Shown piece by piece: positions 49,682 through 54,128 of a DNA stretch of 64,000 nt. Numbering within the stretch: position 1 is the stretch's first letter; each line of letters begins with the position of its first letter. A program made the translations under genes and the position numbers. The stretch is from Collimonas fungivorans Ter331. GTDB taxonomy: Bacteria > Pseudomonadota > Gammaproteobacteria > Burkholderiales > Burkholderiaceae_D. Location of the stretch: positions 3,740,542 through 3,804,541 of the forward strand of contig NC_015856.1 of the NCBI RefSeq assembly GCF_000221045.1, read 5' to 3'. The notes under the pieces are model-generated. The model saw only the letters and a program-made list of their open reading frames with translations, was not told the origin of the DNA and did not search any database.

Positions 49682-49852
49682 GATGATTTTCCTGTTTGAA
49701 GTTTGACGCCATGCAGTTTGACGGCAGGCGCAACAAAGAAAAACCATTATGGCCACAATACATATTTGACTAAAAATCAAATATATAGGAGATTTAATGT
49801 AAATTTCGCACAAAACTTGCCCAATGCCACGGCCTGTGCTCCGTAGCCAATC

Positions 49853-49908
49853 AATTAGGGTCAGAGTCGAATTTTTAAGCATCAAATAATTCGACTCTGA
49901 CCCTAATT
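49853..49908. repeat. Long palindromic REP-like element
   Basis: Two perfect 21-base inverted arms, containing GGGTCAGAGTCGAATT on the left (49853-49873) and AATTCGACTCTGACCC on the right (49888-49908), enclose a 14-base loop. The GGGTCAGAGTCGAA core is a repetitive palindrome I recall from many proteobacterial genomes near REP-associated transposases; no transposase is present here. It lies in the gene-free stretch 49682-50003, which otherwise holds the MFS promoter region and the ogt promoter. Confidence 0.75.
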
Positions 49909-49922
49909 AACTGCTGGATTAC

Positions 49923-49974
49923 TGAATTCGACCGCAAGACCCGGAGTGCGACACCCTGACTGGCTGCCTAGACT
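49923..49974 (+). promoter_or_regulatory. Ada-box promoter of the ogt operon
   Basis: AAT (49925-49927), six bases, then GCAA (49934-49937) matches the A-box/B-box layout of E. coli Ada sites. Nineteen bases after a shared GTGC follows a -10-like TAGACT (49969-49974); no good -35 exists, as expected for an activator-dependent promoter. The 30-base block from 49923 is 26/30 identical to the block upstream of ada (52674-52703), and the -10 spacing is the same. Confidence 0.75.
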
Positions 49975-50003: not shown

Positions 50004-50567
50004 ATGAACACACTACATAACGCTATCGGACCAGCCCCCTACCTGCGGCAACCCCAAACTGCGGTGGAGGAAGAAATCCATTACGCCATCGGCAACGGCC
50101 TGCTCGGTAAATTCCTGGCGGCCCGGACCTCGCACGGTATCTGCGCCATCATGTTCGGCGACGATGAAGAAGTCCTGGTCACCGAACTGGCGCGCGGCTT
50201 TCCCAAAGCAAAATGCATCTTGAGCGACCACGCGCTGCAAGAACTGCTCACGGAAATAAACACCGTGATGGCTTGGCCGGAATACAGGCTGAGCCAGCCG
50301 CTGGACATCGGCGGCACCAGCTTCCAGCAGCAGGTATGGCAAGCGCTGCTGGAAATTCCTGCAGGCGCCACCGCCAGCTACCAGGACATCGCCAACCGCC
50401 TCGGCAAACCCGATGCCGTGCGCGCCGTGGCAGGCGCCTGCGCCGCCAACCTGCTGGCGCTGGCCATCCCCTGCCACCGGGTCATCAGACAAGACGGCGA
50501 CATCTCAGGCTACCGCTGGGGCGTGCAACGCAAGCAGGCGCTGCTGCAACGCGAGGCGCAGGCATGA
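50004..50567 (+). CDS. ogt: Methylated-DNA-protein-cysteine methyltransferase (Ogt/AdaC-like)
   Basis: A 187-residue O6-alkylguanine-DNA methyltransferase with acceptor Cys157 in LAIPCHRVIRQDG. The RNase H-like N-terminal domain (IHYAIGNGLLGKFLAARTSHGICAIMFGDDEE) closely resembles the C-terminal half of the Ada encoded at 52763, as does the GTSFQQQVWQALLEIPAGATASYQDIA helix. It appears to be a paralogue of the Ada C-terminal part. First gene of an operon whose next start overlaps its stop (ATGA). Confidence 0.93.
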   Translation: MNTLHNAIGPAPYLRQPQTAVEEEIHYAIGNGLLGKFLAARTSHGICAIMFGDDEEVLVTELARGFPKAKCILSDHALQELLTEINTVMAWPEYRLSQPLDIGGTSFQQQVWQALLEIPAGATASYQDIANRLGKPDAVRAVAGACAANLLALAIPCHRVIRQDGDISGYRWGVQRKQALLQREAQA

Positions 50568-51307
50568 ACGCCCCCATCCGCACCGCCGCGGCCAGCGCCG
50601 ATACCATATCCAGTCGGCTGCAAGCCATGGACTGGGAAAGCGTTTACCAGGACTTGGACAGCTACGGCAGCGCGCTGCTGCCGCGCCTGGCAACACCGGC
50701 CGAATGCGCGGCGTTGACCGCGCTTTACCCGCGCGACGACATCTTCCGCAGCCGGGTCGTGATGGAGCGCCACGGCTTCGGACGCGGCGAATACAAGTAT
50801 TTCAACTATCCCTTGCCCGGCCTGATAGCGGACTTGCGCAGCGCGCTCTATCCACTCTTGGCGCCTCTGGCCAACCGCTGGAACGAAACGATGCATATCG
50901 CCGCCCGCTTCCCGCAGCAACATGCCGATTTCATTGCCCGCTGCCACGCTGCAGGGCAATTGCGTCCGACGCCGCTGATGCTGCAATACGGCGCGGGCGA
51001 CTACAACTGCCTGCATCAAGACCTGTACGGCGAACATGTGTTTCCGCTGCAGGCGGCAATCCTGCTGTCGGAACCGGGCCGCGATTTCCGCGGCGGCGAA
51101 TTCGTGATGACCGAACAAAGGCCGCGCATGCAGTCGCGCCCCGAGGTCATCCCTCTGACCCAGGGCGACGCCGTCGTGTTTGCGGTCCATAATCGCCCGG
51201 TGCAAGGCCAACGCGGCGCATATAGGGTAAATTTACGGCATGGCGTCAGCCGCATCCGCTCCGGGTCGCGGCACACGCTGGGCGTGATTTTCCATGACGC
51301 TTTATGA
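50564..51307 (+). CDS. 2OG-Fe(II) oxygenase (prolyl-hydroxylase-like) in the alkylation-response operon
   Basis: A 247-residue protein. The double-stranded beta-helix core shows YGAGDYNCLHQDLYGEHVFPLQAAILLSEP (candidate ligands His151 and Asp153), GGEFVMTEQRPRMQSRPEVIPLTQGDAVVF, and a distal His226 in RVNLRHGVSRIRSG, followed by RHTLGVIFHDA. It differs from AlkB, which is encoded just downstream. Start ATG 50564 overlaps the ogt stop by four bases. Such genes recur beside ada/alkB in related bacteria, suggesting a role in alkylation damage; the substrate is unknown. Confidence 0.8.
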   Translation: MNAPIRTAAASADTISSRLQAMDWESVYQDLDSYGSALLPRLATPAECAALTALYPRDDIFRSRVVMERHGFGRGEYKYFNYPLPGLIADLRSALYPLLAPLANRWNETMHIAARFPQQHADFIARCHAAGQLRPTPLMLQYGAGDYNCLHQDLYGEHVFPLQAAILLSEPGRDFRGGEFVMTEQRPRMQSRPEVIPLTQGDAVVFAVHNRPVQGQRGAYRVNLRHGVSRIRSGSRHTLGVIFHDAL

Positions 51308-51317
51308 AGAGCAGCAC

Positions 51318-51980
51318 ATGACTTTAGATTTGTTCGACCTTGAAGAATTGTCCGAATTGTCAGACAAACGCCAGCAACAGCTGGCGCAAGATGCATTCGT
51401 ATTGCGTGCCTTCGCCACGCCTTACGTGGCGCAGCTGTTGCCGCTGCTGGAAACAATCCAGCAAGCATCGCCGTTCCGCCACCTGGTGACTCCGGGCGGC
51501 TTCCGCATGTCGGTAGCCATGACCTGCTGCGGCGCCCTAGGCTGGACCAGCGACCGCCGCGGCTATCGCTACAGCGCTATCGACCCGGACAACGGCCGCA
51601 ACTGGCCCGCCATGCCCGACATTTTTTTACTGCTGGCGCAAGCTGCGGCAGCACAAGCCGGGTTCGACGGCTTCCTGCCGGATGCTTGCCTGATCAACCG
51701 CTACCAGCCGGGAACCAGGCTGACCCTGCATCAGGACAAGGATGAGCAGGACTACGCCGCGCCCATCGTTTCCGTCTCGCTGGGCATCCCTGCGATGTTC
51801 CTGTTCGGCGGCCACGAGCGCAGCGACAAGGCGGCGCGCGTGCCGCTGTTCCATGGCGACGTCGTAGTCTGGGGCGGCGTCGACCGCTTGCGCTATCACG
51901 GCGTGCTGCCGCTGAAGGAAGCCGAACACCCGCTGCTCGGCGGGCAAAGGATCAATCTCACTTTTCGCAAGGCCGCTTAA
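51318..51980 (+). CDS. alkB: AlkB, DNA oxidative demethylase
   Basis: A 220-residue Fe(II)/2OG dioxygenase that removes methyl groups from 1-methyladenine and 3-methylcytosine. It has MSVAMTCCGALGWTSDRRGYRYS, the NRYQPGTRLTLHQDKDEQDYAAPIVSVSLG core with His138 and Asp140, distal His194 in RLRYHGVLPL, and GGQRINLTFRK with Arg211 and Arg217 for 2OG. ATG 51318, 10 bp after the preceding stop, is favoured by GAAGAG upstream; ATG 51294 would overlap it. Confidence 0.95.
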   Translation: MTLDLFDLEELSELSDKRQQQLAQDAFVLRAFATPYVAQLLPLLETIQQASPFRHLVTPGGFRMSVAMTCCGALGWTSDRRGYRYSAIDPDNGRNWPAMPDIFLLLAQAAAAQAGFDGFLPDACLINRYQPGTRLTLHQDKDEQDYAAPIVSVSLGIPAMFLFGGHERSDKAARVPLFHGDVVVWGGVDRLRYHGVLPLKEAEHPLLGGQRINLTFRKAA

Positions 51981-52676
51981 GTGCTCACTTCAATGCCCGC
52001 TTCAACCATTCTCGCTGCCGACATATCAGACAACGCCTACCATGAAGCAGAACAATTCCTCTCGGCGCTAGATGCTGACTGGGCGCGCCATATAACCCGC
52101 ATCGGCCCCTGCCGCCACGCCGCCAAGCCGGCGCGCGATCCCTATGAAGCCCTGGTGCGGGCAATCGCTTATCAACAGCTGCATGCACGCGCCGGCGACG
52201 CCATCCTTGGCCGCATGCTGGCTCTGTTTGGCGATGCGCCTTTTCCGAGTGCGCGGCAATTGCGGGATACGCCTGTCGACATCTTGCACGGCTGCGGCTT
52301 CTCGGCCGGCAAGATCGCCACGATCCACGGCATTGCCCAGGCGGCACTGGATGGCGTTGTGCCGCCGCGCGCCGAAGCGGTAACCATGAGCGACGCCGAC
52401 CTCATTGAACGCCTGACCAGCCTGCGCGGCGTCGGCCGCTGGACCGTGGAAATGTTCCTGATTTATACGCTGGAGCGCATGGATATCTTGCCGGCCGACG
52501 ATTTCGGCGTACGCGAAGGCTACCGCCGCCTGAAGAACCTGCCGCAGGCGCCGACCAAAAAACAGATCGGCGACATCGGCCGGGCCTGGAGCCCTTACCG
52601 CACCGTGGCCGCCTGGTATCTGTGGCGTCTGCCGAAAAATCCAGCAAATCATGAGGATAACAAGGGTATTGTCTGA
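51981..52676 (+). CDS. alkA: DNA-3-methyladenine glycosylase II (AlkA-type HhH-GPD)
   Basis: A 231-residue base-excision glycosylase. PYEALVRAIAYQQLHARAGDAILGRML begins the HhH-GPD fold, the helix-hairpin-helix is LTSLRGVGRWTVEMFLIY, and the catalytic Asp lies in ILPADDFGVREGYRRL. GTG start directly after the alkB stop, with AAGG upstream; ATG 51993 is an alternative. It lacks the N-terminal TATA-like domain of E. coli AlkA, as in short relatives. Its stop codon overlaps the Ada-box block of the ada promoter. Confidence 0.92.
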   Translation: MLTSMPASTILAADISDNAYHEAEQFLSALDADWARHITRIGPCRHAAKPARDPYEALVRAIAYQQLHARAGDAILGRMLALFGDAPFPSARQLRDTPVDILHGCGFSAGKIATIHGIAQAALDGVVPPRAEAVTMSDADLIERLTSLRGVGRWTVEMFLIYTLERMDILPADDFGVREGYRRLKNLPQAPTKKQIGDIGRAWSPYRTVAAWYLWRLPKNPANHEDNKGIV

Positions 52677-52725
52677 ATTTGACAGCAAGACTCGGAGTGC
52701 TACGGCTCCGATGCGTTGCTAAAGT
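52674..52725 (+). promoter_or_regulatory. Ada-box promoter of ada
   Basis: AAT (52676-52678), six bases, then GCAA (52685-52688), with a TAAAGT -10-like box (52720-52725) 19 bases after GTGC. Sequence and spacing match the ogt-operon promoter at 49923-49974. The block begins at the alkA stop codon. The ada ATG is 37 bases after the -10. Confidence 0.75.
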
Positions 52726-52762: not shown

Positions 52763-53842
52763 ATGCGAACGCTGACACAACACCAACACACCGCCCGGCA
52801 AGCTGCCGAGCGCGACCCGCGCTGGGCGGCGGTACTGGCGCGCGATCCGGCCGCAGATACGCAATTTGTCTACGCCGTCAAGACCACCGGCGTGTATTGC
52901 CGCCCGAGCAGCCCGACACGCCTGCCGCGTCCGGAAAACGTCGAGTTTTTCGATACGCCGGCGGCGGCCGAAGCAGCCGGCTACCGGCCTAGCAAACGCG
53001 GCGCCGACCAGACCTCGGTGGCGGCCCAGCATGCCGAACTGGTAGCGGCCGCCTGCCGCCGCATCGAAAGCGCGGAAGAACTGCCGAGCCTGGAGGCGCT
53101 GGCGGCCGACGCCGGCCTCAGCCTGTTTCATTTCCACCGCGTGTTCAAGGCCGTCACCGGGCTGACGCCCAAGGCCTATGCTAACGCCCACCGCGCAAAA
53201 AAAATACGCGACCATCTCAGGCGCAGCCATTCCGTCACCGAGGCAATCTACGACGCCGGCTTCAATTCCAACAGCCGCTTCTATGAAGCCTCGGGCAAGG
53301 TGCTGGGCATGACGCCAACCGACTATCGCGCCGGCGGCGCCAACACCGATATCCGTTTTGCCATCGGCGAATGCTCGCTGGGGGCGATCCTGGTGGCGCG
53401 CAGCGAACGCGGCGTCTGCGCCATCTTCCTGGGCGACGATCCGAATGCGCTGGCGCACGACTTGCAGGATAAATTCCCGCGCGCCCACCTGATCGGCGCC
53501 GACCATGATTTCGAACAGCTGGTGGCACAAGTGGTGGGCTTCATCGAAGCGCCGGCCCTCGGCCTCGACCTGCCGCTGGATGTGCGCGGCACAGCTTTCC
53601 AGCAGCGCGTCTGGCAGGCGTTGCGCGACATACCTGCCGGCAGCACCACCAGCTATGCCGAAATCGCGGCCCGCATCGGTTCGCCCAAGGCGGTGCGCGC
53701 CGTGGCCCAGGCTTGCGCCGCCAACAGCCTGGCGGTAGCGATTCCCTGCCATCGCGTGATCCGCAGCGACGGCAGCGCCTCCGGTTATCGCTGGGGGGTG
53801 GAACGCAAGCACGCATTGCTGGAACGCGAACAAATAAAATGA
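52763..53842 (+). CDS. ada: Ada, bifunctional DNA methyltransferase and transcriptional activator, with degenerate zinc site
   Basis: A 359-residue protein with the three Ada parts: N-terminal methylphosphotriester domain (FVYAVKTTGVYCRPSSPTR...GYRPSKRG), AraC-type HTH (about residues 90-190; DAGLSLFHFHRVFKAVTGLTPKAYANAHR) and C-terminal O6-methylguanine methyltransferase with Cys329 (AIPCHRVIRSDG). Cys46 matches the E. coli acceptor Cys38, but the other three zinc cysteines are replaced: Ser50, Ser77 and Gly80. The usual CRPSC and RPCKRC motifs are therefore broken. Own Ada-box promoter upstream; a small Ada-like gene follows 7 bp downstream. Confidence 0.93.
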   Translation: MRTLTQHQHTARQAAERDPRWAAVLARDPAADTQFVYAVKTTGVYCRPSSPTRLPRPENVEFFDTPAAAEAAGYRPSKRGADQTSVAAQHAELVAAACRRIESAEELPSLEALAADAGLSLFHFHRVFKAVTGLTPKAYANAHRAKKIRDHLRRSHSVTEAIYDAGFNSNSRFYEASGKVLGMTPTDYRAGGANTDIRFAIGECSLGAILVARSERGVCAIFLGDDPNALAHDLQDKFPRAHLIGADHDFEQLVAQVVGFIEAPALGLDLPLDVRGTAFQQRVWQALRDIPAGSTTSYAEIAARIGSPKAVRAVAQACAANSLAVAIPCHRVIRSDGSASGYRWGVERKHALLEREQIK

Positions 53843-53849
53843 AACGAAA

Positions 53850-54128
53850 GTGAGTAAAGCGTGGCGGCTCGTCGGCGCCGACGGCAACAGCTATGACAGC
53901 GACCGTCCGGGCGCATTGGGCGGCCACCGCCGCAGCCGCATATACGGCCGCCTGGATTGCCGCGCGGCGTTACAGGCGATTGCACGCGGCGGTTATGTGA
54001 AGAACCGGGTGTTCTTTCTCAACCAGACTGATGCACGAGCCGCCGGCTACCGCCCTTGTGCAGTCTGCCTGCCGCAAGATTACGCACGCTGGAAAATGCA
54101 GCAGGACCAGGCGGCTGCAAGCCGGTAA
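53850..54128 (+). CDS. Small protein with Ada-like metal-binding domain
   Basis: A 92-residue protein with GTG start, 7 bp after ada. The segment SRIYGRLDCRAALQAIARGGYVKNRVFFLNQTDARAAGYRPCAVCLPQDYARWK matches the Ada_Zn_binding layout, with Cys37 and the CAVC pair Cys70/Cys73; the position of the usual second cysteine is not Cys. It lacks DNA-reader or methyltransferase domains. Its cysteines complement those missing in the adjacent Ada, but stand-alone relatives are common and the function is unknown. Probably co-transcribed with ada. Confidence 0.78.
   Translation: MSKAWRLVGADGNSYDSDRPGALGGHRRSRIYGRLDCRAALQAIARGGYVKNRVFFLNQTDARAAGYRPCAVCLPQDYARWKMQQDQAAASR

Follow-up and report, generated by a model that had tools for sequence, protein, structure and literature searches.

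The window, the whole 64,000-nt stretch of Collimonas fungivorans Ter331 DNA analyzed here, carries between 50004 and 54128 a one-strand series of alkylation-repair genes encoding an Ogt-like protein, a PF09859 oxygenase, AlkB, a short AlkA, Ada, and a 92-residue small protein:

49925..49937, + strand: second Ada box (AATTCGACCGCAA), 67 bp ahead of the first operon gene
50004..50567, + strand: Ogt-like O6-alkylguanine transferase, 55% identity to the C-terminal domain of Ada
50564..51307, + strand: PF09859 (Oxygenase-NA) 2OG-Fe(II) oxygenase
51294..51980, + strand: AlkB
51981..52676, + strand: short AlkA-type HhH-GPD DNA glycosylase
52676..52688, + strand: Ada box AAT-N6-GCAA (AATTTGACAGCAA), 75 bp from box end to the ada ATG
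52763..53842, + strand: Ada, zinc-less variant, a 359-aa open frame with AraC-type HTH and C-terminal PCHR alkyltransferase domain intact
53850..54128, + strand: small stand-alone Ada_Zn_binding-like gene, GTG start, 92 aa

The small gene starts 7 bp past the ada stop. Between an MFS gene and the operon sits an inverted repeat (window 49848-49913) with 29-nt arms and the core TTAGGGTCAGAGTCGAATT, which has 18 copies in the genome, often as facing pairs, and is a dispersed palindromic repeat.

The ada product scores as a full-length Ada (NF011964, 448 bits against a cut-off of 345), with a PF02805 match of 102 bits. In an alignment to E. coli Ada chains 1wpk, 1u8b, 1zgw, and 1adn, the E. coli zinc cysteines, which we take to be Cys38, Cys42, Cys69, and Cys72 with Cys38 as the methyl acceptor, correspond to Cys46, Ser50, Ser77, and Gly80 of the Collimonas protein. 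The initial annotation, which had Cys46 kept and the other three zinc cysteines replaced by these residues, was correct on this point. The E. coli numbering agrees with the available parts of PMC4437013 and PMC3788762. Cys46 is the only cysteine left of the Zn(Cys)4 site that defines E. coli-type Ada, and its presence makes it a candidate acceptor of the N-domain. Both A-box arginines (E. coli R45 and R71) are retained as Arg53 and Arg79, and A/B-box operators are found at 49925 and 52676.

We found the identical loss of zinc cysteines in all 14 intact Adas from 15 Collimonas genomes, our own included; the 15th genome, of 1.7 Mb, holds an ada copy broken by several stops, as if a reduced genome had lost the regulator. 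Among 149 sampled Pseudomonas genomes, 139 gave an Ada match and 137 N-domains could be read (111, plus 26 of the remaining 28, with 25 of the latter 26 four-cysteine; two gave none). In this set, 94 of 137 were zinc-less, as we call Adas without the three cysteines, 42 had all four cysteines, and one had three in place. As the substitutions are present in all 14 intact Collimonas Adas they are not due to chance, and with 94 of 137 Pseudomonas Adas alike we rejected one-off damage as well. For Burkholderiales, 69 matches were listed in 250 genomes and 50 of these Adas read: 46 had four cysteines, one was missing one, and three, the window's own and two others, were without three. Across 158 distinct zinc-less Adas (a count that leaves out L174, L218, and L311, which are partly changed or of another kind), Cys46 is found in 155, Arg53 in 157, and Arg79 in 154, while position 50 is Ser in 153 and Ala in 5, position 77 is Ser in 150 and Asn in 8, and the third replaced position is mostly Ala, Gly, or Ser. 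Such residue conservation is unlike that of a gene in decay, and Collimonas Ada, as judged from these residues, fits a large zinc-less class under strong constraint. According to the available part of a 2024 survey (PMC10957082), every E. coli-like Ada retains the four A-box cysteines; we found no description of a zinc-less Ada class in the available texts of the open-licence literature searched. Zinc is described as essential for the folding of E. coli Ada in the accessible portion of PMC4999995, and loss of the zinc site would therefore need compensation.

Trees built from columns outside the zinc domain, without L174, L218, and L311, placed at least three to five changes of the zinc-less state; a single zinc-less clade was not rejected (AU p 0.404) on a tree that also omitted five long-branch rows. 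In one tree, four-cysteine Pseudomonas Adas of the CKSRLAKR type (L320-L334) nest among the zinc-less ones; the nesting is not firm; if it is true, the zinc site would have been regained or lost repeatedly. The acceptor cysteine is also gone in three zinc-less Adas, replaced by Gly in L091 and L230 and by Arg in L112, so the acceptor role may not be universal. When Gly occupies the acceptor position, E. coli Ada is constitutively active according to the sections available of PMC10957082.

The core of the E. coli Ada box is given as AAT-N6-GCAA in the text available of PMC3788762. The two copies ahead of the operon and ahead of ada share 24 of 27 surrounding bases. Over the whole window, this motif was found 9 times against 12.2 expected, which is no excess, so the weight of the boxes rests on their position and conservation. 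An Ada box starts 78-87 nt ahead of ada in all 14 Collimonas loci, including three without the small gene. At the other zinc-less loci, a box lies within 250 nt of ada or of a directly upstream alkA in 79 of 130 cases (1.0 expected by shuffling), and at four-cysteine loci in 31 of 62 (0.5 expected). In the set of relatives, the 1.5 kb ahead of the small gene contain a box at 14 of 30 loci in betaproteobacteria, against 1.0 expected, and at 8 of 31 in gammaproteobacteria, against 1.2 expected; none of the 12 Actinomycetes loci has one.

The description of the downstream gene in the initial annotation, a 92-residue Ada_Zn_binding-like protein encoded 7 bp downstream of ada with cysteines at 37, 70, and 73, was likewise accurate, and the PF02805 match is above the cut-off (32.4 bits; cut-off 23). 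The AlphaFold model built with 54 sequences reached pLDDT 93 and pTM 0.80; one built with 11 near-identical sequences reached pLDDT 51.5. In a Foldseek search of the PDB, the N-domain of E. coli Ada ranked first and second (1zgw and 1u8b, probability 0.99), a weak fold match by E value (0.013 and 0.022, none below 0.001), TM score (0.44-0.46), and rmsd (8). By hhalign (probability 94.7), in agreement with phmmer, Gly33 of the small protein falls at the acceptor position and Cys37, Cys70, and Cys73 at the structural cysteines; in this profile-profile comparison, Cys37 pairs with structural ligand Cys42 and not with the acceptor. We compared the best 80 of 356 matches. All 80 carry GYRPCAVC, a stretch that had served as a search pattern, which means that Cys70 and Cys73 are invariant partly by construction. 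The acceptor position is Gly in all 80 of these, and we rejected the small protein as a relocated acceptor. Its candidacy as an A-box reader was rejected too: hhalign places Ala40 and Val72 at the positions of R45 and R71, with Ala40 invariant in the 54-row alignment and Val72 present in 80 of the best 80 of 356 matches, where it lies within the search pattern. Without the acceptor cysteine and both A-box arginines, the small protein should be neither acceptor nor A-box reader. His26, present in 78 of the best 80 of 356 matches, is by its conservation a possible fourth zinc ligand. The small protein also shows a weak match (28.4 bits) to the candidate defence family PDC-S40.

By its neighbourhood, the small gene is an alkylation-repair gene. 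In stretches of up to 6 kb on each side of it, a homologue of Ada, Ogt, PF09859, AlkB, or AlkA was found at 73 of 80 loci (the best 80 of 356), but in none of 24 control stretches. These controls, each 12 kb long, were taken at arbitrary rather than random places, 20 from five small-bearing genomes and 4 from the window. Two of the seven loci without alkylation genes lie on contigs with less than 800 nt upstream. Among the same best 80 of 356, the direct upstream neighbour is PF09859 at 41 loci, Ada/Ogt at 18, AlkA at 9, and none of these at 12; two of 17 neighbours labelled Ada (L097 and L115) match the Ogt part only. Many relatives (L054-L133) have between one and three diverged copies of a PF09859 oxygenase flanking the small gene. 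We found no paper in the open-licence literature that names PF09859 or the NCBI name of the small protein.

Within genera, 11 of 15 Collimonas genomes have conserved the small gene, and 5 of 149 Pseudomonas genomes contain it. At least 4 of 296 Actinomycetota genomes carry it, one of them the centre genome; among the three new ones, the gene immediately ahead of it is of Ogt type in two, and in the third it is a PF09859 gene that itself follows an Ogt-type gene. Seven plasmid records carry the small gene as well. An annotated 2OG-Fe oxygenase lies directly upstream of it in 2 of the five plasmid records viewed, and in the Cupriavidus metallidurans CH34 plasmid record a zinc-less Ada and a PF09859 homologue lie upstream. 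On the Microvirga plasmid, its direct neighbours bear no repair name. On Psychrobacillus glaciei plasmid pPB01 (L341 2525-5088), the small gene stands directly before an HNH endonuclease gene and near genes for a BglII-type restriction enzyme and a cytosine methylase. The NCBI name is carried by four of the seven plasmid matches directly and by a fifth through the region table (two from Streptomyces and one each from Rhodococcus, Psychrobacillus, and Microvirga). The small protein is a little-noticed, conserved member of alkylation-repair operons in several phyla, whose cysteine set argues against the obvious function.

The initial annotation had offered two readings of the gene pair: either Ada works without a zinc site or its function has moved to, or is shared with, the small protein. 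As far as gene content goes, the second fails as a general rule on the refuting condition set in that annotation, and each gene occurs without the other. Zinc-less Adas with the same Ser/Gly residues are found without the small gene in 89 Pseudomonas, 3 Collimonas, and 2 other Burkholderiales genomes, and on a poorly resolved ada tree the presence of the small gene changes at least twice within Collimonas. Conversely, the small gene accompanies a four-cysteine Ada in 3 genomes, and 22 more of the best 80 of 356 have no readable E. coli-type Ada. It also occurs in Actinomycetota, where no close relative of Collimonas Ada was found: of 13 actinobacterial genomes that carry the small gene, 12 have a top Ada match of no more than 38% identity (one of them matchless) and one has a match of 47%. 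Two actinobacterial matches were read, of which one has four cysteines and the other three cysteines with Ser at the acceptor position. In the Streptomyces genome of L116, we noted an Ada-like frame (L218) with the three structural cysteines, an acceptor Ser, and no PCHR before the stop. On these occurrences we rejected an obligate split sensor.

The association between the two runs in one direction. An E. coli-type Ada could be read in 58 small-bearing genomes, and in 55 of these it is zinc-less. In Pseudomonas, this holds for all 5 small-bearing genomes, against 94 of 137 overall, and since the zinc-less form is the norm there, these five say little. In Burkholderiales outside Collimonas, 21 of 23 small-bearing genomes have a zinc-less Ada against 2 of 48 background Adas, a contrast with a Fisher p of ~1e-13 that ignores kinship and how the relatives were found. 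These pair counts use a manually assigned state for L078 and a background that excludes L174, and they omit L116, since Ser stands at the acceptor of its match L218 and the frame of L218 has no PCHR. The association in Burkholderiales hints at a functional tie or at cassette transfer, and where both are present Ada and the small protein may form a facultative partnership.

Conversion of a DNA methyl group into a transcription signal by a protein has its textbook example in the charge switch of Ada's zinc thiolates. That a class present in 94 of 149 sampled Pseudomonas genomes has kept the acceptor and the operators without three of the zinc cysteines suggests that the switch can work in another way. 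We consider it probable that the Collimonas operon holds two separable things, a member of the zinc-less Ada class and an accessory small protein. The first reading of the initial annotation, that Ada works without its zinc site, agrees with what these residues and motifs suggest, namely a large, constrained class in which the acceptor, the A-box arginines, and the Ada boxes are kept. In the N-domain, three of the four zinc thiolates have been exchanged for small neutral residues while the acceptor, the A-box arginines, and the HTH were kept. The resulting protein is probably free of zinc, and binding to A and B boxes has most likely been retained. To switch Ada on, a methyl group would be taken either by the lone thiol of Cys46, the likely acceptor, or by the C-terminal PCHR cysteine, and the zinc-based charge switch of E. 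coli would be reduced or gone. The small protein is predicted to be a co-expressed accessory zinc domain of alkylation-repair operons. Since it has the three structural cysteines but neither the acceptor nor the arginines that read bases, it is expected to bind zinc for folding or for contacts, not to sense methylation, and may serve the neighbouring PF09859 oxygenase or alkyltransferase.

Induction data exist for a related arrangement. According to the available text of PMC3788762, MMS raises the activity of the Pseudomonas putida alkA promoter, upstream of ada, ~60-fold, whereas the induction is not significant in an ada strain. Its authors regard these multicopy reporter data as preliminary and state that they cannot explain how the response begins there. 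In P. alkylphenolica, the two Adas read, each next to an alkA of the same type, are zinc-less.

A further possibility, which we regard as a serious minority view, assigns the whole switch to the C-terminal domain: the zinc-less N-domain would be a DNA-binding module only, and methylation of the PCHR cysteine would activate Ada. There is precedent in Caulobacter Cada2, which is without an A-box domain and is switched by its PCHR cysteine according to the part available of PMC10957082. Neutral residues in place of thiolates would presumably remove charge repulsion, and the three natural losses of the acceptor cysteine point the same way; however, Cys46 is retained in 155 of 158 sequences, and a pure DNA-binding module would not need it.

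We think it improbable that the two proteins build one site, with Cys46 of Ada and Cys37, Cys70, and Cys73 of the small protein forming a two-chain Zn(Cys)4 center and thereby a full sensor. Their cysteine sets are exact complements, matching E. coli Cys38 on the one hand and Cys42, Cys69, and Cys72 on the other, and an optional two-chain zinc site is therefore conceivable. The 7-bp spacing in Ter331, the zinc-less state of 55 among the 58 E. coli-type Adas read in small-bearing genomes, and the Ada boxes upstream of the small gene at 14 of 30 betaproteobacterial and 8 of 31 gammaproteobacterial loci are also in its favor. There is a slim chance, on this arrangement, that a co-induced small protein switches the sensor between a weak zinc-less and a strong zinc form. 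Against it, however, the zinc-less Ada occurs without the small gene in the 89 Pseudomonas, 3 Collimonas, and 2 other genomes, the 13 small-bearing actinobacterial genomes have distant Ada matches, an upstream Ada box is missing at all 12 Actinomycetes loci, and the 5 of 5 in Pseudomonas carry little weight where the zinc-less form is the norm. Moreover, His26 may complete the small protein's own site, and with a shared fold, joining sites between the chains would need an exchange of parts. Decay of the Collimonas Ada N-domain, its role taken over by the C4 AdaA-AlkA type fusion that the genome does encode elsewhere (a 536-codon open frame with all four cysteines), is already disfavoured and very unlikely, given the strong conservation across 158 sequences, the conserved operators, and a whole-genome search of 20 small-bearing Pseudomonas genomes, in 15 of which nothing but the zinc-less Ada matched at E 1e-10.

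On the preferred reading, of a zinc-less Ada and an accessory small protein in one operon, the closest known systems each share part of the arrangement. Like E. coli Ada, the Collimonas protein has the same domain order, acceptor cysteine, A-box arginines, B-box HTH, PCHR alkyltransferase domain, and AAT-N6-GCAA operators, but three of its four zinc cysteines are replaced. The P. putida alkA-ada pair, as far as PMC3788762 is available, shares the short AlkA beside Ada and the Ada boxes, and we found no mention of missing Ada cysteines in that part of the paper; in two P. alkylphenolica genomes that share this gene order, the N-domain is zinc-less like that of Collimonas. The small gene, by contrast, is present in only 5 of 149 Pseudomonas genomes. 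Caulobacter Cada2, as described in the portion available of PMC10957082, is likewise an adaptive-response regulator with a PCHR domain and without a four-cysteine zinc site; it differs in that its A-box domain is absent altogether, with an RLHD domain instead, whereas Collimonas keeps the domain (the 102-bit PF02805 match), the acceptor cysteine, and the A-box operator. The small gene, finally, belongs to the stand-alone PF02805 group that NCBI names "Ada metal-binding domain-containing protein"; within that group, the Collimonas copy stands directly behind ada, whereas the commonest upstream neighbour in its relatives is a PF09859 oxygenase.
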